Shown: positions 2,702 through 28,637, counted from the stretch's first letter. The stretch: DNA of 64,000 nucleotides from Asanoa siamensis (GCF_016862555.1 NZ_BONE01000012.1:62001-126000), one strand, 5' to 3'. Notes: a model not told the origin generated them from the letters alone. Numbers and translations: made by a program.

Positions 2702-5700
2702 CTAGCGGCGACCCGCGTACAGCTGCGTCACGTGCTCGGCGCTGAGCTCGTAGCCGTACAGGCGGAAGTCGTCGAGCAGCCCGTCGAACCGCGGGTCTCC
2801 CCAACTCGTCCCACCGAGGAAGTTGGCCGTGGTGGCTCCGCCCACGCCCACGTTGCCGATGCCGATCGGGAAATCGGAGCGGGTGGCCTGCAGGACCCCG
2901 TTGAAGTAGATCTTCGCCGTCGAGCCGCTCATCGTGAACACCACGTGGGTCCACTGGCCGAGCGGCAGGTCCCGGCCTGCCCCGAGGGTGAGCCGCTCCT
3001 GCGCCGGCACTCCCGCGGCCTTGAAGGTGGCCCCGAACCCGGTGGTCCCGCTGTTCGTGGCCGACTGGAGCAGGAAGAACGTGTCGGTGCTGCTGCCGAT
3101 CTGCAGCAGCGGCACCCAGTTCGGCAGCGTGTCCGGACGAGCCCAGAAGGACACGGTGAACTGGTTGGTCAGTCCGGATTGGATGTTGTTGGGCAGCCGG
3201 ACCTCGTTGCCCGAGGTCGCGGCGCCGCCCGGCAGGTTCACCGCGCTGCCGATCCGGCCGGCGGCCCAGGACACGGTGGCCGGCAGCGTCGCCGCACCGA
3301 GAGACGTCCTGGTGCCCGAGTTCCCGGCCGAGGTGCCGGTGTTCTCGTCGAAGGTGTAACGCACGGCGTTACCCTCGTTGAACATCGCCGCCACCTCCGG
3401 CGCGGTCAATGTGGACGTGTACACCCGTACGTCGTCGATCAGACCGTCGAACGCGGCGTCGGGGTATCCGTTGCGGCCCAGCCAGTTGTTGGCCGTCGGG
3501 CCGACGGCGGTCATGTCGACCGTCAGGTCGGCCCGGCTCGCGATCGCCACGCCGTTGAGATAAAGCGTGCCGATCGAGCCTTGGCGCGTGAACGCCACGT
3601 GGTTCCACTGGTTGGCGACGACGTCCTGGGCCGGGCTGGCGTACACCCTTTCCTCGGGGCCGGTCTTGGCCTTGAAGGTCGCGGCCAGGCCGGTGCTCCC
3701 GGACGCCTGGGTCTGCATCTGGATCTGGAAGTAGCTTCCGGCCGAGCCGAGCCCGTCGCCGATGTGGAACAGGCCGGTCCAGTTGCTCTTGGTGTCGGGA
3801 CGCACCCAGAACCCGGTCGTGAAGTTCGCCGCGTTCTGCAGCAGGTTGTCCGGCAGGTCCACCGCGTTGGCGGTGCTGCCGCCCGGCAGGTTGACCGCCT
3901 TGCCGATGACACCGTTGGTGGACCAGCCCGTGGTGCCGGTCAGGATCGCGGCGCCCGGCCCACCAGAGCCACCGGTGTTGGCGGCCGAGGTGCCCTGGCC
4001 CTCCTCGAACTCGTAGCGGACCGGGACACCGACGGGTGTCGGCGGCGGATCGTCGCCCACGACCACCAGGTCGTCGATCATCAGACCGGCGCCCGTGCCC
4101 GGACCCCGCAGGGTGAGCGTCTGCGTGGCCGTCGCCGCCGTGAACGTGCCGACGTACGTGCCGTAGTTGGCCGTCGAGGGCAGGCTCGTCGGCGCGGTGA
4201 TGGTGGCGTTCAGGTTGCCGACCGTCAGGCTGGCGCTCGCCGAACCGGTTCCGGAGACCCGGCTGTCACGTGCGTAGCGCAAGGACACCCGATAGGTGGT
4301 CCCGGGCGTCAGCGAGCTGAGCGTGCGTCTGATGTTGCCCGCGTTGCCCAGGCTGAGCTGGTATCCGGTGAGCCCGAGGCCACCCTGACCGGAAACGGTG
4401 CCGCGGACGAGCTGGACCTGGCTGTCGACCGTCCACGGCGACATCCGGGTGTTGCCGGCGGGGACGTCGACGGTGGCCGGCGGGTTGGCGGTGCGCCACT
4501 CCGCGGGCAGGCGCGGGTACTCGAACTGGTCGACGACCCGCGGGTTGAGCTGGCTCAGCTTGACCGCCGGGTCGACCTTCACGATCTTCGCGACCGACGG
4601 CGTGCCGGCCGCGTCCCAGACGAACAGCATGTACGACCCGGGAGGCGCGTACGTGCCGTTGACCGGCGCGTTGACGGTGACCGTGCCGCCGGACTGGCTG
4701 AACGCCAGGTCCTGGAAGTTCTGGTCGTTGTTGAAGCCGTGGGTCACCGAGCCGTTGCGGACCAGCGTGACCCGCGAGACGGTGCCGGAGGCGGTGATGC
4801 CGAAGCTGCCGTTGTAGCCGATGGTGGCCGGCGCGGTGTTGATCACCGGGCGCGGGGCGGGCTGGTCGCCGTTGAACAGGTACGCCGGGGAGTAGTACTC
4901 GACGTCCGTGTAGTTGCGCGGGCCGGGCGTGCCGCCGCCGCCCATCATGACGCGACCGTCGGGCAGGAGCAGCGCCGCGGAGTGATAGAGCCGGGCATGC
5001 TCGTACGGCACGGCGACCTCGGTCCAGTTCCCGGAGTCGGGATCCCAGATCTCGGCGTTCGTGACGTACCCGCCGTTGCCGTTGTTCTCGCGGCCGCCAC
5101 CGGTGACGAGCACGTCGCCGTCGGGCAGCACCGTCGAGGTCGCCCAGTGGCGCTGGTACTTCATCGGCCGGGTCGCCGTGACGACCGGGCTGGCCGTGCC
5201 GCCGGTGATGTCCACGGTGAAGCCGGCGCGCGCGCCGTCGGGGCCGCCGCCGTTGGCCCACCAGCCGCCGCCGACCTGCAGGATCTTGCCGGGGCGGTAC
5301 ATGGTGGCCGTGGAGGTGGCGCCGACCGGGTTGCCGTTCGCGCCCTGGTTGGCGATCGCGGCGGGCAGCGTGCCCCGCAACGTGACCTGTCCGGTGCCGC
5401 TGTTGCCCGCGGGGTTCAGCTCGTACATCTGGGTGCCGGTGATGTTGAACAGGGTCCCGCTGCCCGGGGCCACGAACGCCCGGGGGTACCACCAGCGGTT
5501 CTCGTCCTGACCGGCGTGGTCGGCACCGCCGTCGCCGTACGCGGCCGGGCTGCGGGCGCCGGTGAGCGTCTTCCAGCCCGAGCCGGACTGGGGCGTGTAG
5601 ATCTCCGGGGTGAGCACACCGGGGCCGCCCGGGCCGCCGCGGAGGCTGCCGCCCTGCACGACGATGTCGCCGTTGGGCATGGTGGTGCCGGTCGGGTACC

Positions 5701-6958
5701 ACCGGGGGTAGTTCATGGGCGCCTTGGTCTGCAGCCCGTTGTTGGTGGTGTAGCTGGTGACGCCGATGGCGGCGTCGTTGGGGCTGTTGCCGCCGAGTCC
5801 GTCGTCACCGCCGACCGTCATCGTCGAGTGGTCGTGCGGGTTCTGGACCTGCATGGCACAGAACAGGTCGGTGTACGTGGTGTTCGGCAGGATGCCCGCG
5901 CGGAGGTTGGTCAGGTTGCGCGGCTGGGCCGGGTCCCAGACGTCGACCTCCATCTGGCCGCCCTGGGTGACCGAGCTGTTGCCGGTCCAGTCGTACGGCG
6001 TGGTGTCGTTGCTCCAGCCCCCGACGCTGCCGAACGACTGCACCTTGCCGTCGGAGGTGAGCGACATGTTGATCGGCACCAGCGGCCACGGCGTGACACC
6101 GCTCCAGGCGCCGGCGCGGTCCTTCACGGGCGGTGAGCAGTCGGCGGGCAGCAGACCGGCGGCGTACGCGAGACCGTTCTTCATCTGGGCCCGCATGTAG
6201 GACTCGGCGTAGGCGGTGCCCTCGTGGCCCATCGAGGTGTACCAGGACCGCCCGGAGTCGATCTTCTGGCACCAGGTGACCGGGTGCGACGTGCCCTGCC
6301 GGCCGCCGCCGTACGACGCCTCGTCGGCCTCGATCAGGGTCCGCACGTACGGCGCCGGGTTGACCACCCAGTCGTACCACTCGTCGCTGCGGGTGAGCGA
6401 CGCCGTCACGCCCTGGGTGAGCGGGTGGGCGGTGTCCCGGACGAAGACCCGGCCCGGCCGGACGCCGGGGTCCTCCGGGTGTCCCTCGGAGGCGGCGCCG
6501 ACGAGGCGGGCGTAGAACGGGTTGACGTCGTGCTCGCTCTCGCCGACCGACCAGCCGGTGTAGTGCAGGCCCATGAAGCCGCCGCCACCGCGGATGTAGG
6601 ACTCCAGCGCGCTGCGCTGTGCCGCGTTGAACAGCACGCCACCGGTCTGCGCGAAGACCACGGTGTCCCGGGCGGCGAGGTTCGCGGTGTTGAAGACCGC
6701 GGGGTCGTCGGTCTCCTGGATCTCCACCGGCTGGTTGTACTGGGTGCCGAGCTGGGTGGCCAGGTCGCGCACCGCCTGCCGCGCCTGCACGTTCGAGGCG
6801 TGGAAGTTGGGCTTGTAGAACAGCAGGACGTTGAGCCGGCCGTCGTCGACCGCGGCGGCCCGGGCGGCGGCGTTGGCCACGGCCGGGACCGCCGACGCGA
6901 CGACGACGAGGATCAGGGCGAGGAGGGCGTGGGCAGACCTGCGGGGCACTTTCATCAT
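2702..6958 (-). CDS. Secreted ThuA / galactose-oxidase-like copper radical oxidase / double LamG protein
   Basis: A 1418-residue exported protein. It has a signal peptide (about residues 1-33, hydrophobic ALLALILVVVASAVPAV) and a ThuA-like domain (about 40-275). A galactose-oxidase kelch propeller with the C-terminal DUF1929 domain follows (about 285-830). All copper-site residues of this family can be placed: Cys367 in DLFCAM and Tyr421 in RWYPT (the Cys-Tyr cofactor), axial Tyr658 with His659 in RLYHS, and His740 in SVTHGF. After a jelly-roll-like linker come two tandem LamG-like domains (about 1010-1205 and 1210-1418). Such oxidases turn a C6 alcohol of galactose-type sugars or another primary alcohol into an aldehyde and H2O2 outside the cell. 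Start: tandem ATGs at 6958 and 6955, preceded by GAGGGGA. An IclR-type dyad lies upstream at 7082-7097. Confidence 0.85.
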   Translation of the reverse strand: MMKVPRRSAHALLALILVVVASAVPAVANAAARAAAVDDGRLNVLLFYKPNFHASNVQARQAVRDLATQLGTQYNQPVEIQETDDPAVFNTANLAARDTVVFAQTGGVLFNAAQRSALESYIRGGGGFMGLHYTGWSVGESEHDVNPFYARLVGAASEGHPEDPGVRPGRVFVRDTAHPLTQGVTASLTRSDEWYDWVVNPAPYVRTLIEADEASYGGGRQGTSHPVTWCQKIDSGRSWYTSMGHEGTAYAESYMRAQMKNGLAYAAGLLPADCSPPVKDRAGAWSGVTPWPLVPINMSLTSDGKVQSFGSVGGWSNDTTPYDWTGNSSVTQGGQMEVDVWDPAQPRNLTNLRAGILPNTTYTDLFCAMQVQNPHDHSTMTVGGDDGLGGNSPNDAAIGVTSYTTNNGLQTKAPMNYPRWYPTGTTMPNGDIVVQGGSLRGGPGGPGVLTPEIYTPQSGSGWKTLTGARSPAAYGDGGADHAGQDENRWWYPRAFVAPGSGTLFNITGTQMYELNPAGNSGTGQVTLRGTLPAAIANQGANGNPVGATSTATMYRPGKILQVGGGWWANGGGPDGARAGFTVDITGGTASPVVTATRPMKYQRHWATSTVLPDGDVLVTGGGRENNGNGGYVTNAEIWDPDSGNWTEVAVPYEHARLYHSAALLLPDGRVMMGGGGTPGPRNYTDVEYYSPAYLFNGDQPAPRPVINTAPATIGYNGSFGITASGTVSRVTLVRNGSVTHGFNNDQNFQDLAFSQSGGTVTVNAPVNGTYAPPGSYMLFVWDAAGTPSVAKIVKVDPAVKLSQLNPRVVDQFEYPRLPAEWRTANPPATVDVPAGNTRMSPWTVDSQVQLVRGTVSGQGGLGLTGYQLSLGNAGNIRRTLSSLTPGTTYRVSLRYARDSRVSGTGSASASLTVGNLNATITAPTSLPSTANYGTYVGTFTAATATQTLTLRGPGTGAGLMIDDLVVVGDDPPPTPVGVPVRYEFEEGQGTSAANTGGSGGPGAAILTGTTGWSTNGVIGKAVNLPGGSTANAVDLPDNLLQNAANFTTGFWVRPDTKSNWTGLFHIGDGLGSAGSYFQIQMQTQASGSTGLAATFKAKTGPEERVYASPAQDVVANQWNHVAFTRQGSIGTLYLNGVAIASRADLTVDMTAVGPTANNWLGRNGYPDAAFDGLIDDVRVYTSTLTAPEVAAMFNEGNAVRYTFDENTGTSAGNSGTRTSLGAATLPATVSWAAGRIGSAVNLPGGAATSGNEVRLPNNIQSGLTNQFTVSFWARPDTLPNWVPLLQIGSSTDTFFLLQSATNSGTTGFGATFKAAGVPAQERLTLGAGRDLPLGQWTHVVFTMSGSTAKIYFNGVLQATRSDFPIGIGNVGVGGATTANFLGGTSWGDPRFDGLLDDFRLYGYELSAEHVTQLYAGRR

Positions 6959-7081
6959 GGGTCCCCTCGAGGTTCGGCTGACGTGACAGTGAGGACGGTC
7001 ACTGCCACCGGCCCGAAGGTATGACAACCACGAACTCATCGTCAAGAACTCTGTCTATATACCTGAACTTCCATGCCGTAG

Positions 7082-7097
7082 GTTCTCATATGTGAAC
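7082..7097. promoter_or_regulatory. IclR-type operator upstream of the oxidase gene
   Basis: GTTCTCATATGTGAAC is a dyad matching its own reverse complement at 14 of 16 positions. It shares the GTTC-N8-GAAC frame with sites at the kduI/iclR and tautomerase promoters. It sits between the aldehyde dehydrogenase stop and the oxidase start. Confidence 0.55.
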
Positions 7098-8579
7098 TCA
7101 GCGCAGCTCGGCGATGACCGTCTTGAGCTCGGTGTAGTCGTCCAGGCCGAACGAGCCGAGTTCGCGGCCCCAGCCCGACTGCTTGAAGCCACCACGCGGC
7201 AGCGTGACGTCGTCGGCGTGCCACGTGTTGAGCCACACCGTTCCGGCCCGCAGGCGGGCGCCGACGCGGTGGGCCGTGCCGATGTCGGTCGACCAGACAC
7301 CCGCGGCGAGGCCGTACACCGTGTTGTTCGCGGCCGCGACGACCTCGTCCTCGGTGTCGAACGGGATCGCGGTCACGACGGGGCCGAAGATCTCGTCGGT
7401 CTGCACCGCCATCCGCTCGTCGACGCCGGTGATCAGCGTCGGCTGCACGAAGTAGCCACGGTCACCGACCCGGTCGGCGCTGCCCGCCGTCAGCACGGCG
7501 CCGTCGCGGACGGCACCGCGGATGTAGCCCAGCACCTTCTCGTGCTGCTCCTGTGACACCAGCGGACCCATCTGCGCGGCGGGGTCGAAGCCGTCGCCCA
7601 CCGTGATCGCGGCCGCCGCGGCGGCGACCCCCTCGACGACCCGGTCGAAGACGCCGCGCTGCACGTACAGGCGCGAGCCGTTGACGCAGCACTGCCCCTC
7701 GTTGAAGTAGCCGCCCAGCACCGCGCCGGCGATGGCCGCATCGATGTCCGCGTCGGCGAAGATGATGTTGGGAGCCTTGCCGCCGAGCTCGAGGGAGACC
7801 TTCTTCAGGTTGCCGGCGGCCGCCGCGGCGATCTTCTTGCCGACCTCGGTGCTGCCGGTGAAGGCCACCTTGTCGACACCGTGGTGCGCGACCAGCGCGG
7901 CCCCGGTGTCGCCGAAGCCGGGCAGCACGTTCACGACGCCGGCCGGCACGCCGGCCTCGAGCAGCAGCTCGCCGAGGCGCAGCGCGGTCAGCGGCGTCTG
8001 CTCGGCCGGCTTGAGGATCACGGTGTTGCCCGCGGTGATCGCCGGGATGATCTTGAAGCAGGCCATCAGCAGCGGGAAGTTCCACGGCACGATGCCGGCG
8101 ACGACGCCGATCGGCTCGCGGCGCGTGTAGGCGTGGAACTCGCGACCCGGCACCGACATCGGGATGGTGGTGCCCTCCATCTTGGTCGCCCAGCCGGCGA
8201 AGTAGCGGAAGAGCTCCGCGGCGGTGGCGATGTCGCCGTCCCGGGCCGCCTCGACGCGCTTGCCGTTGTCGAGGGCCTCGAGCTGGGCGAGCTCGTCGGC
8301 GTGGGCCTCGATCAGGTCGCCGATGCGCCAGAGCAGGTGCGAGCGGTCGCGCGGGGTCATCCTCGACCAGGGCGAGCCGGACTCGAACGCCGCGCGCGCC
8401 GCCACGACCGCCCGGTCCACGTCGACGCTCGACGCGTACGCGACCTGGACCAGGTCCTCCTCGGTCGACGGGTTGACGGTGGCGAAGGTCCGCCCGTCCT
8501 TCGCGTCCACCCACTCACCGTCGATGAGCAGCTGCTTGGGCGACGACAGGAACGAGCGGACGGCGGGCAGGAGATTCAT
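7098..8579 (-). CDS. NAD(P)-dependent aldehyde dehydrogenase
   Basis: A 493-residue cytoplasmic ALDH-superfamily enzyme of normal length. It has the oxyanion asparagine in PWNFP (Asn167), cofactor-loop TGSTEVG, the general base Glu264 in LELGGK and the nucleophile Cys298 in EGQCCVNGSR. It oxidises an aldehyde to the carboxylic acid; the substrate is not readable from sequence, but residues resemble betaine/phenylacetaldehyde-type ALDHs. It is the last gene of the kdu-ABC operon, 12 bases behind the second permease. ATG start with AGGAAGG nearby. In this setting it may oxidise a sugar aldehyde or a semialdehyde from uronate breakdown (inference). Confidence 0.9.
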   Translation of the reverse strand: MNLLPAVRSFLSSPKQLLIDGEWVDAKDGRTFATVNPSTEEDLVQVAYASSVDVDRAVVAARAAFESGSPWSRMTPRDRSHLLWRIGDLIEAHADELAQLEALDNGKRVEAARDGDIATAAELFRYFAGWATKMEGTTIPMSVPGREFHAYTRREPIGVVAGIVPWNFPLLMACFKIIPAITAGNTVILKPAEQTPLTALRLGELLLEAGVPAGVVNVLPGFGDTGAALVAHHGVDKVAFTGSTEVGKKIAAAAAGNLKKVSLELGGKAPNIIFADADIDAAIAGAVLGGYFNEGQCCVNGSRLYVQRGVFDRVVEGVAAAAAAITVGDGFDPAAQMGPLVSQEQHEKVLGYIRGAVRDGAVLTAGSADRVGDRGYFVQPTLITGVDERMAVQTDEIFGPVVTAIPFDTEDEVVAAANNTVYGLAAGVWSTDIGTAHRVGARLRAGTVWLNTWHADDVTLPRGGFKQSGWGRELGSFGLDDYTELKTVIAELR

Positions 8580-8591
8580 GGTGGCCTTCCT

Positions 8592-9548
8592 TTATTTGAC
8601 GGTCGAGACTTTCGCACGGTCGAGGGTGAGCGCGACCGCGACGACGATGATCGCGCCGTACAGGATCTGCTCGTACGCGGAGGGCACGCCGACGATCGGC
8701 AGGCCCACCCGCAGGAGCGTCACGACGAGCGCGCCGGCGAAGCTGCGCCACACGCTGCCGTGGCCGCCGGTGATGGCGGTGCCGCCGACCACGATCGCCG
8801 CGACCGCCGGCAGGAGCAGATTGTCGGCCATCGTGGGGCCGCCGCTGAACTGCCGCGACACCAGCATGACCGCGGCGAGCCCGGCGCAGCCACCGGAGAC
8901 GCAGAACGCACCGATCTTGACCAGGTCGACCGGTGTGCCGGCGAGCCGCGCGGCCGACTCGGAGTAGCCGGTGGCCGCGATCCAGCTCCGCAGCGGGGTC
9001 ACCGTCAGGACCACGGCGATCAGGGCGACGACGAGGACCGCCATGGCGGCGGACATCGGCACGTAGCCGGCGAGATAGAGGTCGAGCCAGTGGATCGTCG
9101 AGTCGTCGACGACCCGTACCGTGCCGGCGCCCGAGATCACGAGGGCGACCGCGGACAGGATGGCCATGCCGCCCAGGGTGACGATGAACGACGGAATCCG
9201 CAGCAGCACGTGCGCGGCGCCCTGCGCCGCGCCGATCGCCGCCGCGACCAGGATCACGGCCGGTGTGGCGAGGCCGCCGAGTTCCGGCAGCCACAGGGCC
9301 AGGAAGACGGTCGACAGCGAGGCCAGCGCCGCGATGGACAGGTCGATGCCGCCGCAGAGCACGACCAGCGTCGCCCCCGCGGCCAGCACGATGAGCGGGG
9401 CGGCGGTCCGTGCCACCGCGATCAGGCTGCGCTGCGTCAGGAAGTCCGGGTCCGCGACGGTCAGGGCGGCGACCAGCGCCACCAGGGCGATGAGCGGCAT
9501 GAACCCGGTGAGCCGGTGGACCGGCTTCATGGCGACTGCGGTGCTCAT
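8592..9548 (-). CDS. Sugar ABC transporter permease (RbsC type), second
   Basis: A 318-residue polytopic membrane protein with 8-10 hydrophobic segments. It has the branched-chain/ribose permease signatures GGIDLSIAALASLS near residue 65 and IVVGGTAITGGHGSVWRS near residue 245. It belongs to the CUT2 permease family and forms the channel for the ATPase encoded just upstream. Its ATG overlaps the ATPase stop (ATGA), which shows translational coupling. The operon has two different permease genes, so the importer is probably a heterodimer. Confidence 0.9.
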   Translation of the reverse strand: MSTAVAMKPVHRLTGFMPLIALVALVAALTVADPDFLTQRSLIAVARTAAPLIVLAAGATLVVLCGGIDLSIAALASLSTVFLALWLPELGGLATPAVILVAAAIGAAQGAAHVLLRIPSFIVTLGGMAILSAVALVISGAGTVRVVDDSTIHWLDLYLAGYVPMSAAMAVLVVALIAVVLTVTPLRSWIAATGYSESAARLAGTPVDLVKIGAFCVSGGCAGLAAVMLVSRQFSGGPTMADNLLLPAVAAIVVGGTAITGGHGSVWRSFAGALVVTLLRVGLPIVGVPSAYEQILYGAIIVVAVALTLDRAKVSTVK

Positions 9549-11062
9549 ACCATCTCTTTCACGAGGTCCAGAGGGCTCGGCTTGCCGCCGTTGGGGCAGG
9601 CGACCTCGGTGGCGACCCGGCCGTCGGTCATGACCAGGATGCGGTCGGCCATGCCGATGGCCTCCTCGAGGCTGTCGCCCAGGAGCACGGTGGCGACGCC
9701 GGTCGCGGCGAGCTCGCGCATCAGCCGGTACACCTCCGAGCGGGCGCCGATGTCCAGGCCGCGCGTCGGATGGTCCAGCAGGAGCAGCCGGACGTCGCCG
9801 GCCACCAGCCAGCGGGCCAGGATCACCTTCTGCTGGTTGCCGCCGGACAGCCGCTGGATCGGGGTGTCCCGGCCCGGGGTCCGGATGGAGAGCCGGCGGA
9901 TCCACGAGTCGACCAGCGTGGCCTGCTTCCTGGGTGCCACGAACGGTCCCGCGAGGCGGGCCCGCTGCTTGGCCAGGGTCATGTTCTCGGCCACCGACAT
10001 CGGCCCGACCATGCCCTCGATCTTGCGTTCGGCCGGCACGTAGCCGATGCCGGCGGCGCAGGCGGCCCGGGTGCTGGGCAGCTCGATCGTCCGGCCGTCC
10101 ATCCGGATCTCGCCGGCGGTCGTCGGTTCGGCGCCGAACAGCGCGCGGCAGACGTCCTCGCGACCGGAGCCGTGCACGCCGACGATCGCCACGATCTCGC
10201 CGCGCGCGACGTCGAAGCTGATGTCCCGGAACGTCGCGCCCGACAGCCCGCGTACGGACAGCCGGGGCTCTTCGGAGACGACCGTGGTGGCGGCGTTCTC
10301 GTGGTAGTGGTCGTCGGATCCGGTGGAACCGATCATCATCCGGTGCAGCTCGCGTGGGACCGCGCCGGCCGTGGCGACCTCGCCGACCGACCGGCCGCCG
10401 CGCAGCACGGTCACCCGGTCGCAGACGTCGAGCACCTCGTCGAGCCGGTGCGAGACGAAGATGACCGTGGCGAACTCGCGCAGCCGGCGGATCTGCGCGA
10501 ACAGCGTGTCGATCTCCTTCGGCTCCAGGACCGAGGTCGGCTCGTCCAGGATGACGACCGGCGGATGCTGGGTACGCTCCTCGATGCGCAGCACCTTCGC
10601 GATCTCGACCATCTGCCGGTCGGCGAAGGAGAGCGAGTCGGTACGGGCGAGCGGGTCGATCCGCGAGCCGATCTTGTCGAGCTGCTCCTGGGCCAGGCGG
10701 CGCATGACCTCCCAGCGGTAGACGCCCCGGCGGACGGCGGGCCCCTCGCTGCCGAGCACGATGTTCTCCGCGGCGGTCAGGTTGGGCACCAGCGACTGTT
10801 CCTGGAACACCATCCCGATGCCGTGGTCGGCGGCGTCCACGACGCTGCGCAGCCGGACAGGCTCGCCGCGGACGTGTATCGAGCCGGCGTCCGGGGCGAC
10901 CAGGCCGACCAGCGCTTTGAGCAATGTGGACTTGCCGGCGCCGTTCTCCCCCGCCAGACCGAGCACCTCGTTGCGCCGTACGACCAGGTCGACCCCGTCG
11001 AGGGCCTTCACCCCGGGGTAGTGCTTGACGAGGCCGCGTACCTCCAATGCCGGGACGCTCAT
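9545..11062 (-). CDS. Sugar ABC transporter ATP-binding protein (RbsA type)
   Basis: A 505-residue protein with two tandem ABC domains, the CUT2 layout. The first has Walker [10 protein letters not shown] (near residue 37), the signature LSFADRQMVEIAK and Walker B VVILDEPTS. The second has the degenerate P-loop region VGVHGSGREDVCRALFG and the signature [15 protein letters not shown] with LLLLDHPTRGLDIG; the Walker B acidic residue is followed by His instead of Glu (DHPT). It drives uptake of a sugar or sugar acid with the flanking permeases. ATG start at 11062 overlaps the stop of the preceding permease (ATGA). Confidence 0.92.
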   Translation of the reverse strand: MSVPALEVRGLVKHYPGVKALDGVDLVVRRNEVLGLAGENGAGKSTLLKALVGLVAPDAGSIHVRGEPVRLRSVVDAADHGIGMVFQEQSLVPNLTAAENIVLGSEGPAVRRGVYRWEVMRRLAQEQLDKIGSRIDPLARTDSLSFADRQMVEIAKVLRIEERTQHPPVVILDEPTSVLEPKEIDTLFAQIRRLREFATVIFVSHRLDEVLDVCDRVTVLRGGRSVGEVATAGAVPRELHRMMIGSTGSDDHYHENAATTVVSEEPRLSVRGLSGATFRDISFDVARGEIVAIVGVHGSGREDVCRALFGAEPTTAGEIRMDGRTIELPSTRAACAAGIGYVPAERKIEGMVGPMSVAENMTLAKQRARLAGPFVAPRKQATLVDSWIRRLSIRTPGRDTPIQRLSGGNQQKVILARWLVAGDVRLLLLDHPTRGLDIGARSEVYRLMRELAATGVATVLLGDSLEEAIGMADRILVMTDGRVATEVACPNGGKPSPLDLVKEMV

Positions 11063-12054
11063 TTGACCACCTGGTTCCGTCGACGTTGCGGGATGACGGC
11101 GGCGGCGACCGCGGCCACCACGATGAGACCCTCGACGCCGCCCTGCCAGTACGGACTGACCCCGACCTGGACGAGACCGTTGGTGAGGACCATGACGAGC
11201 AGGACGCCGACGGCGGAGTGCCCGATGCCGCCGCGACCCCCGGTCAGCAGGGTGCCGCCGACGACGGCGGCGGTGATGGCCGAGAAGTCGTACCCGTCGC
11301 CGGCCTGGACGAGGCCGGCGCCGAGTTGGCTGGTCACCATCACGCCGGCCAGCCCGTAGAAGGCGCCGGCGAGGGTGAAGACCGCGACCTTGTACGGCTT
11401 CACCTTGACGCCCGAGAGCGCGAGCACCTCCTCGGCGCCGCCGATGGCGAAGGCGTAGCGACCCAGCCGGGTGTAGCGCTGGACGAGCCAGCCGACCAGG
11501 ACACACCCGGCGGCGATCCAGGTGAGGTACGAGAGCCCGAGGAACCGCTCGATCGCCAGCCCCTTGACCATGGTGTCGGAGATGTTGGGCTGCACGCCGG
11601 CGAACATCAGGGTCGCGACGCCGAGCCCGACGGCCGACATCCCCAGCGTCGCCATGAACGAGGGCACCTTCAGCAGCACCAGGGCGAGCCCGCTCAGGCA
11701 GCCGAACGCGCAGCCCAGCAGGACGGCGACCGCGATGCCGAGCAGCCCGAAGTCGTTGTCGTTGCGATTGTTGGCCACCAGCAGCGAGACGGTCAGCGCG
11801 GAAGCGCCCATCACGCCGGCGGCCGACAGGTCGATCGACCCCATCATCAGCACGAACGTGATTCCGCAGGTGACGACGGCGAGCACGGCGGCGGCGTCCA
11901 CGATGTTCGCGACGTTGTCGAGGCTGCGGAACTGCGGGCTCAGGGCCGCGAAGACCAGGAAGACGACGATCAGCGCGACCGGTGGGCCAGCATCTCGAAA
12001 CGACGCGCCTCGCCGGGACTGGCGGCGAGGCGCGTTGACGACCTCGGACGTCAT
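11059..12054 (-). CDS. Sugar ABC transporter permease (RbsC type), first
   Basis: A 331-residue membrane protein of the CUT2 permease family with about nine hydrophobic segments and the conserved MMGSIDLSAAGVMGAS and VVGGTLLTGGRGGIG loops. The ATG at 12054 lies two bases after the lipoprotein stop; a GTG at 12060 that overlaps that stop (GTGA) is an alternative start and would add two residues. It works with the ATPase that follows. The operon order lipoprotein-permease-ATPase-permease is less common than keeping both permeases together. Confidence 0.9.
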   Translation of the reverse strand: MTSEVVNAPRRQSRRGASFRDAGPPVALIVVFLVFAALSPQFRSLDNVANIVDAAAVLAVVTCGITFVLMMGSIDLSAAGVMGASALTVSLLVANNRNDNDFGLLGIAVAVLLGCAFGCLSGLALVLLKVPSFMATLGMSAVGLGVATLMFAGVQPNISDTMVKGLAIERFLGLSYLTWIAAGCVLVGWLVQRYTRLGRYAFAIGGAEEVLALSGVKVKPYKVAVFTLAGAFYGLAGVMVTSQLGAGLVQAGDGYDFSAITAAVVGGTLLTGGRGGIGHSAVGVLLVMVLTNGLVQVGVSPYWQGGVEGLIVVAAVAAAVIPQRRRNQVVK

Positions 12055-12056
12055 GG

Positions 12057-13148
12057 TCACGTCAGGGGCCCGGCCACACGGTTGAAGACGTTGCCGCACT
12101 CGAAGTCGGCCGGGTTCGTCTTCGGCGCGGCGAACTCGCCGGCGTTGTCCTTGGTGATGAGGAACTGCTCGGCGAAGAACGCCCGGTTGTCCTTGGCGAT
12201 CTCCTCCACCTTGAGCTTGCCGGTGGCGGCGCAGAAGCCGATCGCCAGGCCGACGCCGCCCTGCCACGAGCCGTCGCTGGAGACGGTGGCGGTCATCGTG
12301 CCGTTCTTCACGGCGGTGACGGCGTCCGGGACGGCGTCGATGCCCACGACCGCCACCTTGCCGGCGAGACCCGCCTGCTGCAGCGCCTCGAGAGCGCCCA
12401 GCGCCATGTCGTCGTTGGCCGCCCAGATGCCCTTGACCTTGTCGCCGTGCTTGGTCAGCAGCGTCTTGGTGACGGTGAGCGCCTCGGCCCGCGAGAAGTT
12501 GGCCGCCTGCTGGTCGAGGAGCTTGACGCCGGTGTTCTTCTCGAGCGACTTCTGCAGGCCGGCGAACCGGTCCTTGGCCGCCGCGGTGTCGAGCACACCC
12601 TGCAGCGCGATGATGCCGCCCGAGCCGCCGATCGCGGTGGCGAGCGCGTCACCGATCTGCTGGCCCGACTCGACGCCGTTGTAGGTGATGTGGCTGAGCC
12701 AGGTCTTGTAGTCGGCCGGCTTCAGGTCGGCCGGCTTGTTCCACTGCGTGACCAGGTACGCCCCGGCCTGGTCGGCACCCTTGACGATCGGCGCGGTGTC
12801 CGAGTCGCCGTTGGGGAGCACGTTCATGACCAGGCACTTGGTGTCGCCGGCGAGGATCTGGCTGATCTGCTCCTGCTGCTTGGTGGAGTCACCGTCGTAG
12901 GTGAGGCGCTCCTGGGTGAGACCGACGGACTTGGCGAAGGCGTCGCCACCGGCGAGCCACGAGGCCTCGTACGGGTTCGACTCGTTGCGGACCTGCCCCA
13001 CCAGCCGGACGGCGGACGGCTCGCAGGCGGCCTCGCCGCCGGCGGCGGTGTCGTTGCCTCCGGCGGCCTGCTCGCTGCAGCCGGAGAGGACGGCAGCGGC
13101 TAAGGACAGGCTCATGATGACGGCGGCGGGACGAAGGACGATATTCAT
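12057..13148 (-). CDS. Sugar-binding lipoprotein of ABC transporter
   Basis: A 363-residue periplasmic-binding-protein-like lipoprotein. A signal sequence ends in the lipobox LSGC (about residues 20-23), followed by a Gly/Ala-rich linker and a type I fold like RbsB (GIWAANDDMALGALEALQQ, then VAVVGIDAVPDAVTAV). It captures the substrate outside the membrane for the two permeases. Start: the ATG at 13148, seven bases after GAGG; a TTG two codons upstream is less likely. The substrate is unknown, but co-transcription with kduI and kduD suggests an unsaturated uronate-derived oligosaccharide, a uronate or an oxidised sugar. Confidence 0.88.
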   Translation of the reverse strand: MNIVLRPAAVIMSLSLAAAVLSGCSEQAAGGNDTAAGGEAACEPSAVRLVGQVRNESNPYEASWLAGGDAFAKSVGLTQERLTYDGDSTKQQEQISQILAGDTKCLVMNVLPNGDSDTAPIVKGADQAGAYLVTQWNKPADLKPADYKTWLSHITYNGVESGQQIGDALATAIGGSGGIIALQGVLDTAAAKDRFAGLQKSLEKNTGVKLLDQQAANFSRAEALTVTKTLLTKHGDKVKGIWAANDDMALGALEALQQAGLAGKVAVVGIDAVPDAVTAVKNGTMTATVSSDGSWQGGVGLAIGFCAATGKLKVEEIAKDNRAFFAEQFLITKDNAGEFAAPKTNPADFECGNVFNRVAGPLT

Positions 13149-13220
13149 GATCAATCCTCGATTTCTCGTTGCCGGGGACGGTGCGGTCTTGGTGCTGGCT
13201 TGCTGCGGTGGAGGCCGGGG

Positions 13221-13979
13221 TCAGCGGGCCATCCACCCTCCGTCGACGACCAGGACGTGGCCGTTGACGTAGTCGGCGGCGGCGGAGCTCAGGAAGACGG
13301 CCGCGCCGGCGACATCGGCGGCGTCCCCCCAGCGACCGGCCGGGATGCGCGCGAGGATCGCCCGGGACCGGTCGGGGTCGGCCCGCAGCGCGGTGGTGTT
13401 GTCGGTGGCCATGTAGCCGGGCGCGATGGCGTTGACCTGCACGCCGAGCGGACCCCACTCGTTGGCCAGGGCCTTGGTGATGCCGGCGACGCCGTGCTTG
13501 CTGGCGGTGTAGGCCGCGACACGGATGCCGCCCTGGAAGGAGAGCAGGCTGGCGACGCTGACGATCTTGCCGTGGCCGCGCGCGGCCATCGGGCGGCCGA
13601 ACTCCTGGCAGAGGAAGAACAGGCCGTTCAGGTTGACGTCCACCACCCGGTGCCAGGCCTGCCGGGTCACGTCTAGGGCGTCCGCGCGGTCGATGATGCC
13701 GGCGTTGTTGACCAGGATGTCCACCTGACGGCTGCCGGTCACCTCGGCCGCGACCCGTCCGACGGCCTCGTGGTCGCTGACGTCGAGGTCGACGATCTCG
13801 ACGTCGCGGCCGAGGTCGGCCACCTGGTCGCGGGTCTCCGTCTGGCTGCCCGACCGGCCGACCAGGACCAGATCGGCGCCGGCCCGGGCGAGCCCGAGCG
13901 CGATGCCCTGTCCGAGGCCACGGCCGGCGCCGGTGACGACGGCGCAGCGGCCGTGCAGGTCGAACGGCGAGCGGGTCAC
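13221..13979 (-). CDS. kduD: 2-dehydro-3-deoxy-D-gluconate 5-dehydrogenase (KduD-like SDR)
   Basis: A 252-residue short-chain dehydrogenase with the cofactor motif TGAGRGLGQG (about residue 15), the NNAG motif, the catalytic serine in SVASLLSFQGG and YTASK (Tyr/Lys). The C-terminus YVNGHVLVVDGGW is typical of KduD. Known KduD enzymes reduce 2,5-diketo-3-deoxygluconate to 2-keto-3-deoxygluconate with NADH in the cytoplasm. The GTG start at 13979 overlaps the kduI stop (GTGA), so kduI and kduD are coupled, as in pectin-degrading bacteria. Its place in the operon supports the name more than sequence alone, since SDR specificity is hard to read. Confidence 0.85.
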   Translation of the reverse strand: MTRSPFDLHGRCAVVTGAGRGLGQGIALGLARAGADLVLVGRSGSQTETRDQVADLGRDVEIVDLDVSDHEAVGRVAAEVTGSRQVDILVNNAGIIDRADALDVTRQAWHRVVDVNLNGLFFLCQEFGRPMAARGHGKIVSVASLLSFQGGIRVAAYTASKHGVAGITKALANEWGPLGVQVNAIAPGYMATDNTTALRADPDRSRAILARIPAGRWGDAADVAGAAVFLSSAAADYVNGHVLVVDGGWMAR

Positions 13980-14794
13980 AGCTCCTCCAGCGCCACCGGG
14001 GTCAGGTCGGTGTAGTCGTTGTTCTCGCCGCCCATCGCCCAGATGAAGGCGTACGAGCCGGTGCCGACACCCGAATGGATCGACCACGGCGGCGAGATGA
14101 CCGCCTCGCGGTTACGCACGACCAGGTGGCGGGCGGCGCCGGGCCGGCCCATGAGGTGGAAGACGCGCTCCTTCTCGTCGAGGTCGACGTAGAGGTAGAC
14201 CTCGGTGCGCCGGTCGTGCAGGTGCGGCGGGAGCGTGTTCCACACCGAGCCGTCGGCGATGACGGTGACGCCGAACTGCAGCACCGCGGTCTGGAGCTCC
14301 TGGCCCCACGCGTACCGGTAGAGGCTACGTTCGTTGGCACCCTGCGGGGTGCCGAGCCGGACCGGCTCGATCGACGCGTGGCTGAGCAGGGTCGTCGGGT
14401 AGGTCGCGTGCGCCGGAGCGCTGACGAAGTAGAACGCGGCGTCGGGGCCGGCGAAGGTGACCTCGTTGCCACGGCCGACGAAGAGTCCGTCGAGGTGGCG
14501 CAGCTCGAACTTCTCGTTGTTGACCAGCACGTGGCCCGGCTGGCCCACGTTGACGACGCCGAGCTCGCGGCGGGTCAGGTGGGACGGCGCGCCGAGCACG
14601 TCCCAGGCCGGCAGCTCGAGCTGATCGGTGCCGGGAACCGCCGCGCCGACGATCAGCCGGTCGTCGTGGGTGTAGACACCCCGGACCTCGCCGGTGCGGA
14701 ACAACTGCTCCACGAGGAAGTTCTTTCGCAGGTCGGCATTCGTCGCCGTCTCGACCTCTGACGGCGATGCGGAGTACCTAACTTCGATCAACAC
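13976..14794 (-). CDS. kduI: 5-keto 4-deoxyuronate isomerase KduI
   Basis: A 272-residue KduI/IolB cupin-family isomerase close to the length of known KduI. The zinc ligands are visible as His191 and His193 in PPHLHDRR, Glu198 in TEVYLY and His240 in WSIHSGVG. It converts 5-keto-4-deoxyuronate (from unsaturated uronates) to 2,5-diketo-3-deoxygluconate. KduI of E. coli is also reported to act on galacturonate and glucuronate. Start: GTG at 14794, with a TTG directly after it; GAGGAG precedes both, and the TTG has the better spacing. First gene of a seven-gene operon, divergent from the IclR regulator. Confidence 0.93.
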   Translation of the reverse strand: MLIEVRYSASPSEVETATNADLRKNFLVEQLFRTGEVRGVYTHDDRLIVGAAVPGTDQLELPAWDVLGAPSHLTRRELGVVNVGQPGHVLVNNEKFELRHLDGLFVGRGNEVTFAGPDAAFYFVSAPAHATYPTTLLSHASIEPVRLGTPQGANERSLYRYAWGQELQTAVLQFGVTVIADGSVWNTLPPHLHDRRTEVYLYVDLDEKERVFHLMGRPGAARHLVVRNREAVISPPWSIHSGVGTGSYAFIWAMGGENNDYTDLTPVALEEL

Positions 14795-14807: not shown

Positions 14808-14832
14808 GTGAACCGCGTTCAGCTACGTGAAC
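14808..14832. promoter_or_regulatory. IclR-type operator cluster in the kduI/iclR intergenic region
   Basis: The half-site GTGAAC (14808-14813) is followed by the dyad GTTCAGCTACGTGAAC (14817-14832). The dyad fits the GTTC-N8-GAAC pattern and lies just upstream of kduI. Confidence 0.55.
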
Positions 14833-14883
14833 CGAGCCGAACGATACCTATGGCTCCGATCACAGGTCAAGAGCTTGAAGTTG

Positions 14884-14899
14884 GTCCCTCTATGTGAAC
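14884..14899. promoter_or_regulatory. Second IclR-type operator, upstream of iclR
   Basis: GTCCCTCTATGTGAAC matches the oxidase-promoter site at 12 of 16 positions, with one arm (ATGTGAAC) intact. It is 57 bases upstream of the chosen iclR start, consistent with autoregulation. Confidence 0.45.
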
Positions 14900-14955
14900 T
14901 GTGGTTGAGTCTGGTGGCATGCTTGAGGCGCGTCATCGTCGATGAGGAGGTCTGG

Positions 14956-15729
14956 GTGGACACGGACAAGACGGCCAACGGCGGCTCCGCCACCTCGCAG
15001 GTCAAGTCGGCCGCGCGCGTCCTCGACCTCCTGGACGACATCGCCGCGAACGGCCCCGGCACCCAGCTGCAACTGGCCACCCGCCTCGGCATCCCCAAGA
15101 GCAGCCTGCACGCGCTCCTGCGCACCATGTGCGCCCGCGGCTGGCTGGACACCGACCAGACCGGCAGCGTCTACCGGCTCGGCGTGCACACGCTGACGGT
15201 CAGCTCCGCCTATCTGGACGGTGACCCGGTGCTGTCGCGCGCCCGGTCCGTGATGGACGAGATCGCGGCGGCCACCGAGGAGACCGTGCACCTGGGCCGC
15301 CTCGAGGGTGCCGAGATCATCTACACCGCCAAGCGCGAATCCAAGCACCCGTTGCGGATGTACTCGGCCGTCGGGCGCCGCCTGCCCGCGTACATGACGG
15401 CGCTCGGCCGGGCGATGCTCGCCGAGCTGCCCGAGGACGTCCGCGACCCGCTCATCCCCCACCAGATCAAGCCGGTCACCACGCAGACGATCACCGACCG
15501 GGACGCGTTGCTGGCGATCATCGACAAGGCCGGCCAGCTCGGCTACGCGGAGGAGAGCGAGGAGTCCTGCCTGGGCGTCCGCTGCTTCGGCGTCGCGCTG
15601 CCCTTCTCGCACCGCTCGCAGGACGCGGTGAGCGTCGCGGTCCCGGTCAGCCGCCTCGACCAGGGTCGCGAGGACTTCATCATCGAGACCCTGCTGAGCG
15701 TGAAGGCCCGCCTGTCGGCGATGCGTTAG
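14956..15729 (+). CDS. IclR-family transcriptional regulator
   Basis: A 257-residue regulator with an N-terminal winged helix (SAARVLDLLDDIAANGPG, then LATRLGIPKSSLHALLRTM) and the C-terminal IclR effector domain. That domain has the typical LGRAMLAELP, YAEESEESCLGVRCFGVAL and VSVAVPVSRL segments. Start: the GTG at 14956, five bases after GAGGAGG; the frame extends upstream without support. It is divergent from kduI, the usual position for the regulator of a kdu operon (compare KdgR). The repeated GTTC-N8-GAAC dyads are its probable binding sites. The inducer is probably a keto-deoxy sugar acid (inference). Confidence 0.9.
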   Translation: MDTDKTANGGSATSQVKSAARVLDLLDDIAANGPGTQLQLATRLGIPKSSLHALLRTMCARGWLDTDQTGSVYRLGVHTLTVSSAYLDGDPVLSRARSVMDEIAAATEETVHLGRLEGAEIIYTAKRESKHPLRMYSAVGRRLPAYMTALGRAMLAELPEDVRDPLIPHQIKPVTTQTITDRDALLAIIDKAGQLGYAEESEESCLGVRCFGVALPFSHRSQDAVSVAVPVSRLDQGREDFIIETLLSVKARLSAMR

Positions 15730-19718: not shown

Positions 19719-22700
19719 TCACCGCGCGCGGCGGTCGGCGAAGTAGTCCGCCGCTTCGGTCAGCCACTCCGACCCGCCGGCGGTGAGGGTGGGGTCGGCG
19801 ACCAGGGCGTGCAGCGCCGTGCGGGCCGCCGCGGACCGGCACGGGTCGAGCATCAGCAGCAGGCGGGCCGCCTCGTCGCGCGTGGCGGGGCGGGTCGTGC
19901 GGTCCAGGGCCACCCGGGCGAGGCCGGCCACCGCGACGTCCGTCTCTCCCAGGGAGGCGATCTCGTAGAACAGCGTGACGGAGAGCTGCCGCTCGGCGGC
20001 CTTCTCGGCGATCGTGGCGAGGGTCCGGACGCCGGCGGCGCGCATGGACGAGAAGCGGGCCAGCTCGCGGGCCGCGAGCGCGCTCGTCCCGATCTCCGTC
20101 TGCGCCTGCGCGACCTGGACCAGGACCTTCGTGCGCCGCTCCTCGTCGCTCTCACCGAGTTGGACGAGCTCGCGGGCCGCCTGCAGGGCGTCGAAGCCGG
20201 TCAGGCGGTAGCACAGCGCCTCGACCGCGTCCTGCGCCACGCCCTGGAAGTCGAGTGCCCAGAGCGAGACCTCCCGGGCCAGATCGAGGCGGTCACGCAG
20301 GCGGAGGGTGTCGGTGGAGATCAGATCGGCGGTACGGCCCAGGGCTGTCCGGCGGGCGGCCGGGCCGAGCTGCGCCAGTGCCCGGATCGCCTCGCGGCGG
20401 CTCGGCAGCGGCAGGCTGTCGTCGTCGACGACGGCGGAGACGACGTCGAGAGCGGCCGGCCGGGAGTGTGGGTCGGCGGCGGCGAGGTCGCGCGCCAGGG
20501 CCAGCCGCTGGGCGGTGCCGCTCGCCTCCCGCAGCGCGGCGCGCAGAGCGGCGGCGAGCACCGGCCCGTGGTCGGGTCCGAGCTGCGCCAGGGCCCGGGC
20601 GGCGACCACGCGCTCGGCGGCGGGGACGGCGGGTTCCGCGACGATCCGGCGCAGGTCGGCCACGCCCTGCGCGTAGCCGGCTTCCCCGAGTTCGAGGAGG
20701 GCCTGGGCGGCACTCGTCCGGTCGTCGGCCGGCGCGGCCCCGGTCGCCATCCCGTGCAGCAGGCCGGCGGCCCGGTCGCGGTCACCCCCGAGGCTCGTGG
20801 CGACGAGCTGCGCGGCCGCGATCCACTCGCGGGGGCAGACGCCGAAGTCGGGTCCCGCGGCTTCGGTCAGGACGGTGACCGCCTCGTCCGCCGTGTCCGC
20901 CCGCAGGAACTCCTGGGTCAGGGCGACGGGCGACACCGCGCCCGATCCGATCAGCCGGGCGAGCGCCGTACGCGCCGATGGGACCTGTTCCGGTGTGAAG
21001 CTCTCCAGCAGTCGGAAGGCGTGCACCTGGAGGTTCGGCGCGACGCCCCAGCGGAGGACGAGGCGAAGGCGGTCGCCGGCCCGGCCCCGGAAGGCCGGGC
21101 CCTGCGCGGCGAACAGCGCGATGGTCGACGGTGCGGCGCCGGTGGCGAAGTTGGCGGACCGGTTCACGTACTCGTCGAAGAGCTTCAGGGTGATGTCGTC
21201 GAAGCGGGGGGCCTGGTCCTTCAGCGCCTCGAGCGCGTCGGCCGTGCTCAGCCGACGGTTGGCGATCAGCCGGTTGACCCGGACCTGGACGTAGCGGGTC
21301 TCCCGGGAGGTGGCCAGCGTACGCACGGCGCGCACCAGCAGGTCCCCGGTGATGTCCGGTGCGTCGAGCAGGGGGCGGAGCAGCTCCACGCCGCCGGGCG
21401 GGAGCGGGCGAACGGCCGCCATCGCCTCGCACCGGGCGAGCACCTCGGCCGGGGTGTCGGGGCGGGGCGCGGGTTCGGGCGGACGCCGCCGTGGCGACCG
21501 GGGTCGGGTTTCGGCCGCCGGCCGGCCGCGGGGCACACGGGTCAGGCCGCGTGCGGCGAGCCACGCGTCGTCGAAGCGCCACAGGTCGAGGTGGACGACG
21601 ACGCGCAACAGCCGGTGGACCACGGCGTCCCAGCTCGGCACGCGCCGGAGCCGTGGCCGCGGCGCGTCGTCGACGGGCGGCCGGGTCGCCGCCGGTCCCG
21701 CGGCGGGCGGCTCCGGGGTCGTCGGCCGCGGCGGGTCGGGCAGCACACGGCCGGCCCGGGCATGGAGCGCCCGTACCGTCGCCGTCTCGTACCCGCTCAG
21801 GCGCTTGTCGTCGCTCAGCGGGCCGAGCACCTCGATCGCGCTGCGCTGCCCGACCAGGCCGAGGTCGAGCAGCGCCTCCGCGGCCTGCAGCCGCTGCCGC
21901 GCCCTGACTCCCGGGTCGCCCGCGATGGCGTGCAGCGCCTGGGCACCGACCGCGGAGGACGTGCGGTACGAGACCAACGCCTCGGCCGCACCCAGCCGCA
22001 GCTCGGCGTCCGCCGTGCTGTCGCTCGCCACCTCCTGGAGCACGTCGACCACGTCGGGCTGCACGGGCAGGCTCGCCGCGAGCCGCACGGCGGCGAGGGC
22101 CCGGTCGGCGGTGTGCGACGCCCGGCGGGTGCGGCTGGTCCAGAACCGCAGCGCCTCGGCGAAGCGCGCGAACTGCCGCGGTTCGGCGGGAACCCCTTCC
22201 GCGAGCAGCCGGGCCGCGAGCATCTGGCTGTCCTCGTCGCCGCCGGCGAGCCAGTCGAGCAGCGCGGCCGTGGAGCCGTGCTGGAAGGCGTGGTGGGCCA
22301 GCACGGCCAGGGCCTCGCCGGTCGGGAAGCGGCGGGCCGCCGTGACGTAGTAGGCCCACAGCTCGTGGTCGGCGTCGAACTCGGCGGGCAGGCTCCGCGC
22401 CCGGCTGCTCGCGACCCGGTGCTCCGCGAACGTGTGGTGCACGAACTTGAGGTCCGTGCCGACGTGGGCGAGCAGCCCGGTGCTGGTCGCCACGCTCGCG
22501 ATGATCAGCTGCCAGTCCGGTGGGGCCGGGTCCGGACGGCGGCCCGCCTGGCGGATCCACTCCGCCGCCGCGGCCGACAGCCCGGCGCCGCGCAGCGCCG
22601 CCTCGGCCAGGTGGTCGACGAGGGCGAGCCGGTGGTCGGCCAGCCACCGCGCCAGCGCCGCGCCGTCCGGCCAGCCGCGCAGCCGCTCGGTGAGACCGTC

Positions 22701-27569: not shown

Positions 27570-28637
27570 TCAGAAGTCGAACTGGTCGATGTTGGACGCC
27601 TCGAAGGTGAACGGGTCGCCGAGGACGATCTCGCCGTTCGCGCCTACCGTGTACTCGCCCAGCTTGCCCGCCGTGAACTTGTCGCCCTGCTTGCCCGTGA
27701 TGATGCCCGAGGCCAGCGCGCCGCCCGCGTACGCCGCCAGATAGCCCAGGTCCGCCGGGTTCCACAGCGCGAACGCCTTGCACGTGCCGTCCTTCACGAA
27801 CGCGCGCATCTGGTTCGGGGTGCCGAGGCCGGTCAACTGCACCTTGCCCTTGTACGAGGAGCCCGACAGGTACCGCGCGGCCGCGGCCACGCCCACCGTC
27901 GTCGGCGAGATGATGCCCTTGAGGTTCGGGTGCTTGGCCAGCAGGCCCTGCGCCTCCTGGAACGACTTCTCGTCCTGGTCGTCGCCGTAGACCGTGTCGA
28001 CCAGCTTCAGCTTCGCGTACTCCGGCTTGGCCAGCTCGGCCTTCATCATCTCGATCCAGGCGTTCTGGTTGGTCGCGTTCGCCGTCGCCGACAGGATCGC
28101 GATCTCACCGCCGTCCGCACCGATCGCGTCGGAGATCAGCTTGATCTGCGACTTCGCGATGCCGTCGGCGGTCGCCTGGTTGACGAACACGTCCCGGCAT
28201 TCCGGCTTGGTGTCCGAGTCGTACGTGACGACCTTCGCGCCCGCGGTCTTGGCCTCGGTCAGGGCGCCGCAGATCGCGTCCTTGTCGTTGGCCGACACCA
28301 CGATCACGTCGGTCTGCTGCTGCGAGAGCGTGTTGATGTAGGACACCTGCGCCGACGGGCTCGCCTCCGACGGGCCGGTCTGCGAGTAGGTGCCCTTGAA
28401 CTCCTCGACGGCCGACTTGCCGCCCTTGTTGTCCGAGGTCTCGAAGTAGGGGTTGTTGACCTGCTTGGGCAGGAAGGCGATCTTGAGGCCCTCCTTGATC
28501 GTGCCCGAAGAGTTGCCGGTGTCGCCGCTGCCCGTGCCGCTGCCGGCGTCGCCGCCGTCCTCGGCACACGCGCCGAGACCGAGCGTCAACGCCGCGAGGA
28601 CGGTCGCCGCGACGACGCGTACACCTGTGATCCTCAT
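27570..28637 (-). CDS. rhaS: Rhamnose-type ABC transporter binding lipoprotein
   Basis: A 355-residue lipoprotein with lipobox LGAC (about residues 21-24), then a Gly/Ser linker and the highly typical RhaS segment LPKQVNNPYFETSD and GPSEASPSAQVSYINTL, with VVSANDKDAICGALTEAK and the C-terminal NIDQFDF. Known RhaS proteins bind L-rhamnose outside the membrane for import. Its start overlaps the permease stop (ATGA). Last gene of a four-gene operon ATPase-permease-permease-binding protein, followed by a strong terminator. Rhamnose specificity is inferred from similarity; no catabolic rhamnose gene is in the window. Confidence 0.85.
   Translation of the reverse strand: MRITGVRVVAATVLAALTLGLGACAEDGGDAGSGTGSGDTGNSSGTIKEGLKIAFLPKQVNNPYFETSDNKGGKSAVEEFKGTYSQTGPSEASPSAQVSYINTLSQQQTDVIVVSANDKDAICGALTEAKTAGAKVVTYDSDTKPECRDVFVNQATADGIAKSQIKLISDAIGADGGEIAILSATANATNQNAWIEMMKAELAKPEYAKLKLVDTVYGDDQDEKSFQEAQGLLAKHPNLKGIISPTTVGVAAAARYLSGSSYKGKVQLTGLGTPNQMRAFVKDGTCKAFALWNPADLGYLAAYAGGALASGIITGKQGDKFTAGKLGEYTVGANGEIVLGDPFTFEASNIDQFDF

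Follow-up and report, generated by a model that had tools for sequence, protein, structure and literature searches.

Galactose oxidase and related AA5 copper radical oxidases (F. graminearum 1gof; Pseudarthrobacter 9g43) are secreted enzymes made of a Kelch propeller and an early-set domain, with a Cys-Tyr cofactor pair, an axial Tyr, and two His ligands. The best-studied bacterial copper radical oxidase, the secreted GlxA of Streptomyces (SCO2837, 4unm), acts in morphogenesis. No link between GlxA and kduI/kduD is known. The latter two genes belong to a branch of pectin and glycosaminoglycan degradation (Dickeya; isomerase-reductase clusters, PMC12838403), in which the kduI-kduD pair is found with an IclR-family regulator, a 2-keto-3-deoxygluconate (KDG) kinase, and a KDPG aldolase. 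In the ThuA/ThuB 3-keto-disaccharide pathway (thuEFGKAB), ThuA is paired with a sugar importer and with sugar oxidation, which takes place at C3 by an intracellular dehydrogenase.

We analyzed a 64,000-nucleotide stretch of the Asanoa siamensis genome (8.8 Mb; Micromonosporaceae), referred to below as the window. Its positions 2702-14794 hold a gene run on the minus strand consisting of kduI, kduD, four genes of an RbsABC-like importer, an aldehyde dehydrogenase (ALDH) gene, and a gene for a secreted ThuA::copper-radical-oxidase::LamG fusion. The nearest named loci are those of Asanoa ishikariensis and A. hainanensis. With the pectin/glycosaminoglycan branch, the cluster shares the kduI-kduD pair, the IclR-family regulator and, in many relatives, the KDG kinase and KDPG aldolase. 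In contrast to that branch, it has no lyase, GH88/105, or PL22 gene, adds the ALDH and the secreted oxidase, and has its own KduI clade. Unlike galactose oxidase and other AA5 enzymes, the oxidase core is flanked by an N-terminal ThuA domain and C-terminal LamG domains, and is encoded with a sugar catabolic operon. The likeness to thuEFGKAB is an analogy only; the ThuA of this cluster forms one protein with an extracellular copper oxidase.

The product of kduI (13976..14794, minus strand, as are all genes of the run), a cupin-type 5-keto-4-deoxyuronate isomerase, scored 356 bits with the NCBIfam model NF002091 (cut-off, 250) and matched PDB 1ywk with an E value of 1e-74. Its sequence contains the metal ligands H191, H193, E198, and H240 (HxH...E...H). 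The GTG start of kduD (13221..13979), assigned by its context, overlaps the kduI stop; the encoded SDR-type 2-dehydro-3-deoxygluconate 5-dehydrogenase reached 354 bits with TIGR01832 (cut-off, 339). The importer is RbsABC/AraG-like and comprises one sugar-binding lipoprotein (12057..13154; PF13407; closest solved relative 2RJO, E 5e-70), two permeases (11059..12054, start picked from sequence, and 8592..9548; both PF02653), and one AraG/RbsA-like double ATPase (9545..11062; two PF00005 domains; 454 bits with NF008442, below its cut-off). The ALDH (7098..8579; PF00171, 576 bits) resembles betaine and phenylacetaldehyde dehydrogenases. It stayed below every NCBIfam equivalog cut-off shown, so that its substrate is not readable from the family. 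The genes named in a previous sequence-only reading of this DNA are present at the coordinates given there, with KduI and KduD passing their cut-offs and the importer, ALDH, and oxidase matching profiles. Another sugar importer operon of the window, similar in type (27570-32206, minus strand; binding protein, two permeases, double ATPase) is unlinked to the kdu genes, and a 1397-amino-acid open reading frame with a NACHT domain (19719-23912, minus strand) may encode a defense or signaling NTPase.

The last gene of the run (2702..6958) encodes the secreted fusion (PF06283, PF09118, PF13964, and two PF13385 matches). A TTG at 7045, opening a frame of 1447 amino acids, was rejected as the start codon, because this TTG forms the first bases of the promoter -35 element TTGACG (7040-7045). 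The likely start, judging by the sequence, is the ATG at 6958, which has a ribosome-binding site and is followed by a signal peptide; residue numbers of the oxidase nevertheless count from TTG 7045. Domain profiles placed a ThuA domain first (residues 72-295; 6161..6832; PF06283), the oxidase core in the middle (about residues 305-830; 4556..6133), and two LamG/ConA-like domains, probably glycan-binding, at the C terminus (2705..4528; PF13385). Neither ThuA nor LamG had been mentioned in the sequence-only reading.

Assignment of the core was based on phmmer alignments, on invariance among 67 homologues, and on the predicted fold. The oxidase passed the GO-like_E_set (PF09118) and Kelch_6 (PF13964) domain models, and residues 349-824 matched galactose oxidases in the PDB with an E value of 6e-39. 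When aligned to galactose oxidases, C396 and Y450 correspond to the Cys-Tyr pair, Y687 to the axial Tyr, and H688 and H769 to the His ligands. These five copper and radical residues were invariant in 67/67 homologues, some of which are as little as two thirds identical to the window oxidase. A predicted model of ThuA plus core (pLDDT 81, pTM 0.80) retrieved galactose oxidases as the first Foldseek hits, with about 22-26% identity by fold alignment, and Bacteroidales ThuA-like proteins further down the list. By sequence and fold, the core is an AA5-type oxidase, apparently with a single and conserved substrate. We also considered membership in the GlxA group and rejected it: the NCBIfam model NF052501 gave 128 bits (cut-off, 800) and aligned to the C-terminal third alone. 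No relatives of the oxidase were found in viral contigs.

According to the sequence-only reading, the substrate of the oxidase could be a galactose-type sugar. W290, R330, Y405/Q406, and F464 are the galactose-contact residues of the F. graminearum enzyme. In HMMER alignments, which are of low identity so that the exact columns are uncertain, W290 is replaced by L468, R330 by A511, Y405 by A597, and Q406 by N598, and F464 is likewise not conserved. A different motif, E515-NRWWYPR, is invariant among the oxidase homologues. The proposal of galactose is thereby weakened, and a hexose substrate remains a proposal.

To see the gene set in other genomes, we scanned 84,980 species genomes and obtained 68 loci, most of them 62-94% identical over the whole protein. 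The set compared likewise numbered 68 core-bearing loci, namely, the scan loci plus three congeners and minus three loci with ThuA with or without LamG only. The set is thus carried by many soil actinobacteria, and the loci span about eight families: Micromonosporaceae, Nocardioidaceae, Kribbellaceae, Promicromonosporaceae, Cellulomonadaceae, Streptosporangiaceae, Geodermatophilaceae, and Microbacteriaceae. Near the oxidase gene we found KduI in 65/68 loci, KduD in 66/68, the binding protein in 65/68, and the ALDH in 64/68. All seven upstream genes were present in one order and on one strand in 59 of the 68 loci, and several of the remaining 9 end at contig or flank edges. A PfkB kinase (37/68 loci), whose best solved relative is the KDG kinase 2afb (E 9e-46), and a KDPG aldolase (34/68), which passes the eda model cut-offs, were mostly placed between the ALDH and the oxidase; these two enzymes supply the steps still needed to take 5-keto-4-deoxyuronate to pyruvate and triose phosphate. 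In the Asanoa siamensis genome, an aldolase is encoded away from the cluster. Copper-handling families adjoin the cluster (CopC/CopD in 41/68 loci, YcnI/DUF1775 in 35/68), as expected for a copper enzyme.

Among 151 genomes of the family, orthologous KduI (85-100% identity) and oxidase (82-100%) were found in the identical 14 genomes (Fisher test, 5e-20, kinship ignored), and the two congeners without the orthologues lack both. In a tree, the linked KduI proteins (n = 60) formed one supported clade (99/99). KduI of Blastococcus, Actinotalea, and Microbacterium fell outside this clade, while their oxidase is of the same kind. A second, independent oxidase-kdu linkage by separate recruitment is possible in these genera, although an unlinked KduI (L103) grouped with some of them on long branches. 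More distant oxidases from the family, with identities of about 30-40% (L128-L135), do not adjoin kduI in any instance, so the link to kduI is specific to this oxidase clade. Four loci (L056, L071, L072, and L098) show a second linkage type, in which the oxidase is followed by a divergent kduI-kduD cluster (KduI identity 50-57%) with its own IclR gene and, in 3/4 of them, a PfkB-like kinase. One genome without kduI (G014; L136, G014:C2:2072000-2091900) has an incomplete oxidase, matching at 77% over 212 residues with a stop in the match; fragments of ThuA and LamG accompany it, and a CopC/D homologue is adjacent.

A shared operator-like sequence was detected upstream of both parts of the cluster. 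In most loci reaching that far, the box GTTCACRTAGNNGAACNNNGTTCA is located about 40 bp 5' of kduI, and a second copy lies about 67 bp beyond the kduI-proximal one. In the window, the boxes correspond to GTTCACGTAGCTGAACGCGGTTCA just 5' of kduI (14809..14832, minus strand) and GTTCACATAGAGGGACCAACTTCA in the kduI/iclR intergenic region (14876..14899, minus strand). A third, GTTCAGGTATATAGACAGAGTTC (7046..7068, minus strand), abuts the -35 element of the oxidase promoter, and the sequence upstream of the oxidase contains a possible further half-box, GTTCACATATGAGAACCTACGGC (7075..7097, minus strand). The box was found at kduI in 43 loci and in a degenerate form upstream of the oxidase in 26, where mononucleotide shuffles gave an expectation of 0. 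Since a separate promoter, with operator-like boxes, precedes the oxidase, the cluster probably consists of two co-regulated transcription units. In most loci extending that far, an IclR-family gene is divergent from kduI (in the window, 14827..15729, plus strand; PF01614/PF09339). Its product scored equally as KdgR-like and BhcR-like (130 bits, below both cut-offs; NF011671, 275), and we infer that it binds the boxes. An operator search of 18 genomes revealed no convincing targets outside the locus. In some Micromonosporaceae loci, a weak operator-like match with 3 mismatches was seen beyond iclR (L040 454; window 15980).

The conserved order, the co-occurrence, and the shared operator agree with the earlier view that the oxidase, the importer, the ALDH, and KduI/KduD belong together, and it is likely that the oxidase and kdu genes are one catabolic system. 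The same data bear on a role of the oxidase in surface morphogenesis, as described for GlxA, the bacterial copper radical oxidase of known biology, or on a non-sugar alcohol or aldehyde, which would be in line with the diversity of AA5 substrates (PMC11267884); adjacency to kdu genes would then have some other reason. Co-occurrence in 14/14 genomes, an order kept across families, the common operator, the LamG domains, and the sugar importer all speak against such a role, as does, for morphogenesis, the alignment of the GlxA model to the last third of the protein only. We consider it very improbable.

Next to be weighed is the source of the KduI substrate. As previously noted, no lyase gene is located inside the cluster: every gene of the operon is accounted for, and none encodes a lyase or a GH88/105 enzyme. 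The family's remaining KduI loci likewise have no adjacent lyase among the 25 commonest families listed (one GH88 was seen). This absence is a weak mark, and host-wide counts were therefore used, based on 51 unique genomes after duplicates under two handles had been removed by hand. GH88/105 exceeded the cut-off in 5/51 hosts and was absent from 46/51. PL22 was found in 0 of 51, with a positive E. coli control, and PL1 was absent from 22/51, mostly Nocardioides. A PL8 search, run without a positive control, found nothing. In a comparison set of 18 family genomes with other KduI, GH88/105 was present in 12. Thus, most hosts do not possess the lyase-dependent Kdu gene set (lyase plus GH88/105 or PL22). 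A lyase gene accompanying the cluster in every case would have spoken against the sequence-only reading; this was not observed, and several host genomes have none of the lyase-type families tested.

These counts weigh on the view that the cluster is an ordinary Kdu operon, which imports 5-keto-4-deoxyuronate released from pectin or other uronates by the cell's own or its neighbors' lyases, with the oxidase in an accessory role, either altering the glycan or supplying H2O2. KduI and KduD are indeed canonical, and PL1 was found in 32/54 genome handles searched (duplicates included). The Asanoa siamensis genome has seven PL1 pectate-lyase matches and no GH88/105 or PL22, so that a lyase could feed KduI here. 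Six of the PL1 matches are in tandem (G000:C40:36459-44602), far from the cluster, and congeners have similar arrays. Lyase feeding, however, leaves the ALDH without a role and does not account for the oxidase as a constant partner; neither an oxidase nor an ALDH was found beside the family's other-type KduI loci in the 18-genome control. Together with the operon content and the many hosts without PL1, GH88/105, or PL22, this makes an ordinary lyase-fed operon unlikely.

The sequence-only reading had proposed as a possible route that a galactose-type sugar is oxidized at C6 outside the cell, imported as the aldehyde, and converted by the ALDH to a uronate, which KduI and KduD would then use. 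Spelled out, a hexodialdose would become plain galacturonate or glucuronate, with KduI as hexuronate isomerase and KduD as reductase and no prior deoxygenation. This route draws on the same conserved gene set and on E. coli, where KduI facilitates the breakdown of galacturonate and glucuronate; the reactions of E. coli KduI with hexuronates are themselves only proposed, and the subsequent dehydratase is stated as unknown (PMC3578941). The aldonate product of such a route would need a dehydratase. None is encoded in the operon, and altronate dehydratase (PF04295) was absent in 22/23 hosts including Asanoa siamensis, with the control positive in 5 known genomes; the search covered the altronate-dehydratase family. 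For this reason, a deoxygenation at C4 before KduI fits better. With the galactose contacts not conserved either, the plain-uronate route appears improbable. What stands of the earlier proposal is the joining of the oxidase to uronate catabolism, while the identity of the sugar and the plain-uronate step have become weaker.

We favor a scheme that gives every gene a role, in which the cluster provides an oxidative, lyase-independent entry to the KDG pathway by C6 oxidation and beta-elimination; we would give it an even chance. Outside the cell, the fusion protein would bind a glycan, and its copper-tyrosyl radical center would oxidize the C6 primary alcohol of a hexose unit to an aldehyde, with release of H2O2. 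The aldehyde would make H5 acidic, and the O4 substituent would be lost by beta-elimination, either spontaneously or with the help of ThuA, yielding a 4-deoxy-4-ene (equivalently, 4-deoxy-5-keto) dialdose. This dialdose would be imported by the RbsABC-like transporter and then, in the presumed order, oxidized at C6 by the ALDH to 5-keto-4-deoxyuronate, the normal substrate of KduI. KduI and KduD would convert it to KDG, from which KDG kinase and KDPG aldolase, whose genes many relatives carry within this operon, would produce pyruvate and glyceraldehyde-3-phosphate. The IclR-type regulator would control both transcription units.

Chemical beta-elimination is known for the products of galactose oxidase, which under heat or alkali yield the alpha,beta-unsaturated 4-deoxy aldehyde (PMC3388858). 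Near neutral pH an enzyme would therefore be needed, and ThuA is the natural suspect, although this is a guess. A weak precedent is the occurrence of ThuA proteins beside sugar 3-oxidation (PMC4765114). It is conceivable, if rather doubtful, that the fusion acts as an "oxidative lyase," in which the oxidase makes the C6 aldehyde in the glycan and the fused ThuA eliminates (or hydrates), cutting the chain and freeing a 4-deoxy sugar. Through such an enzyme, neutral glycans would enter the KDG pathway used for pectin, with neither a polysaccharide lyase nor a uronic acid involved.

In the literature searched, which mostly did not extend to subscription journals, there was no report joining these genes; the gene set suggests a so far unreported means of feeding the KDG route without the usual lyases. 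If C6 oxidation and elimination operate as proposed, a bacterial copper radical oxidase would serve nutrition as part of a complete and regulated pathway, the KDG pathway would be fed oxidatively from neutral sugars, and the presence of kduI and kduD need not imply lyases or uronates. Elimination would also become a testable function of ThuA domains.

ThuA domains are widespread and poorly understood. In the fused domain, H161, E222, and H274 do not vary within the clade and also occur in the Bacteroides ThuA-like protein 4jqs. Three ThuA-LamG proteins (L094, L095, and L044) are ~85% identical to the fusion and have no oxidase core. The species of L094 and L095 also carry the full fusion, and the core-less L044 protein directly precedes one. 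Judging by these proteins, the core seems to be a module that can be removed. The ThuA family is expanded in this genus: about a dozen more ThuA-domain matches were found per genome, genus-wide, many of them in proteins of >1100 amino acids.
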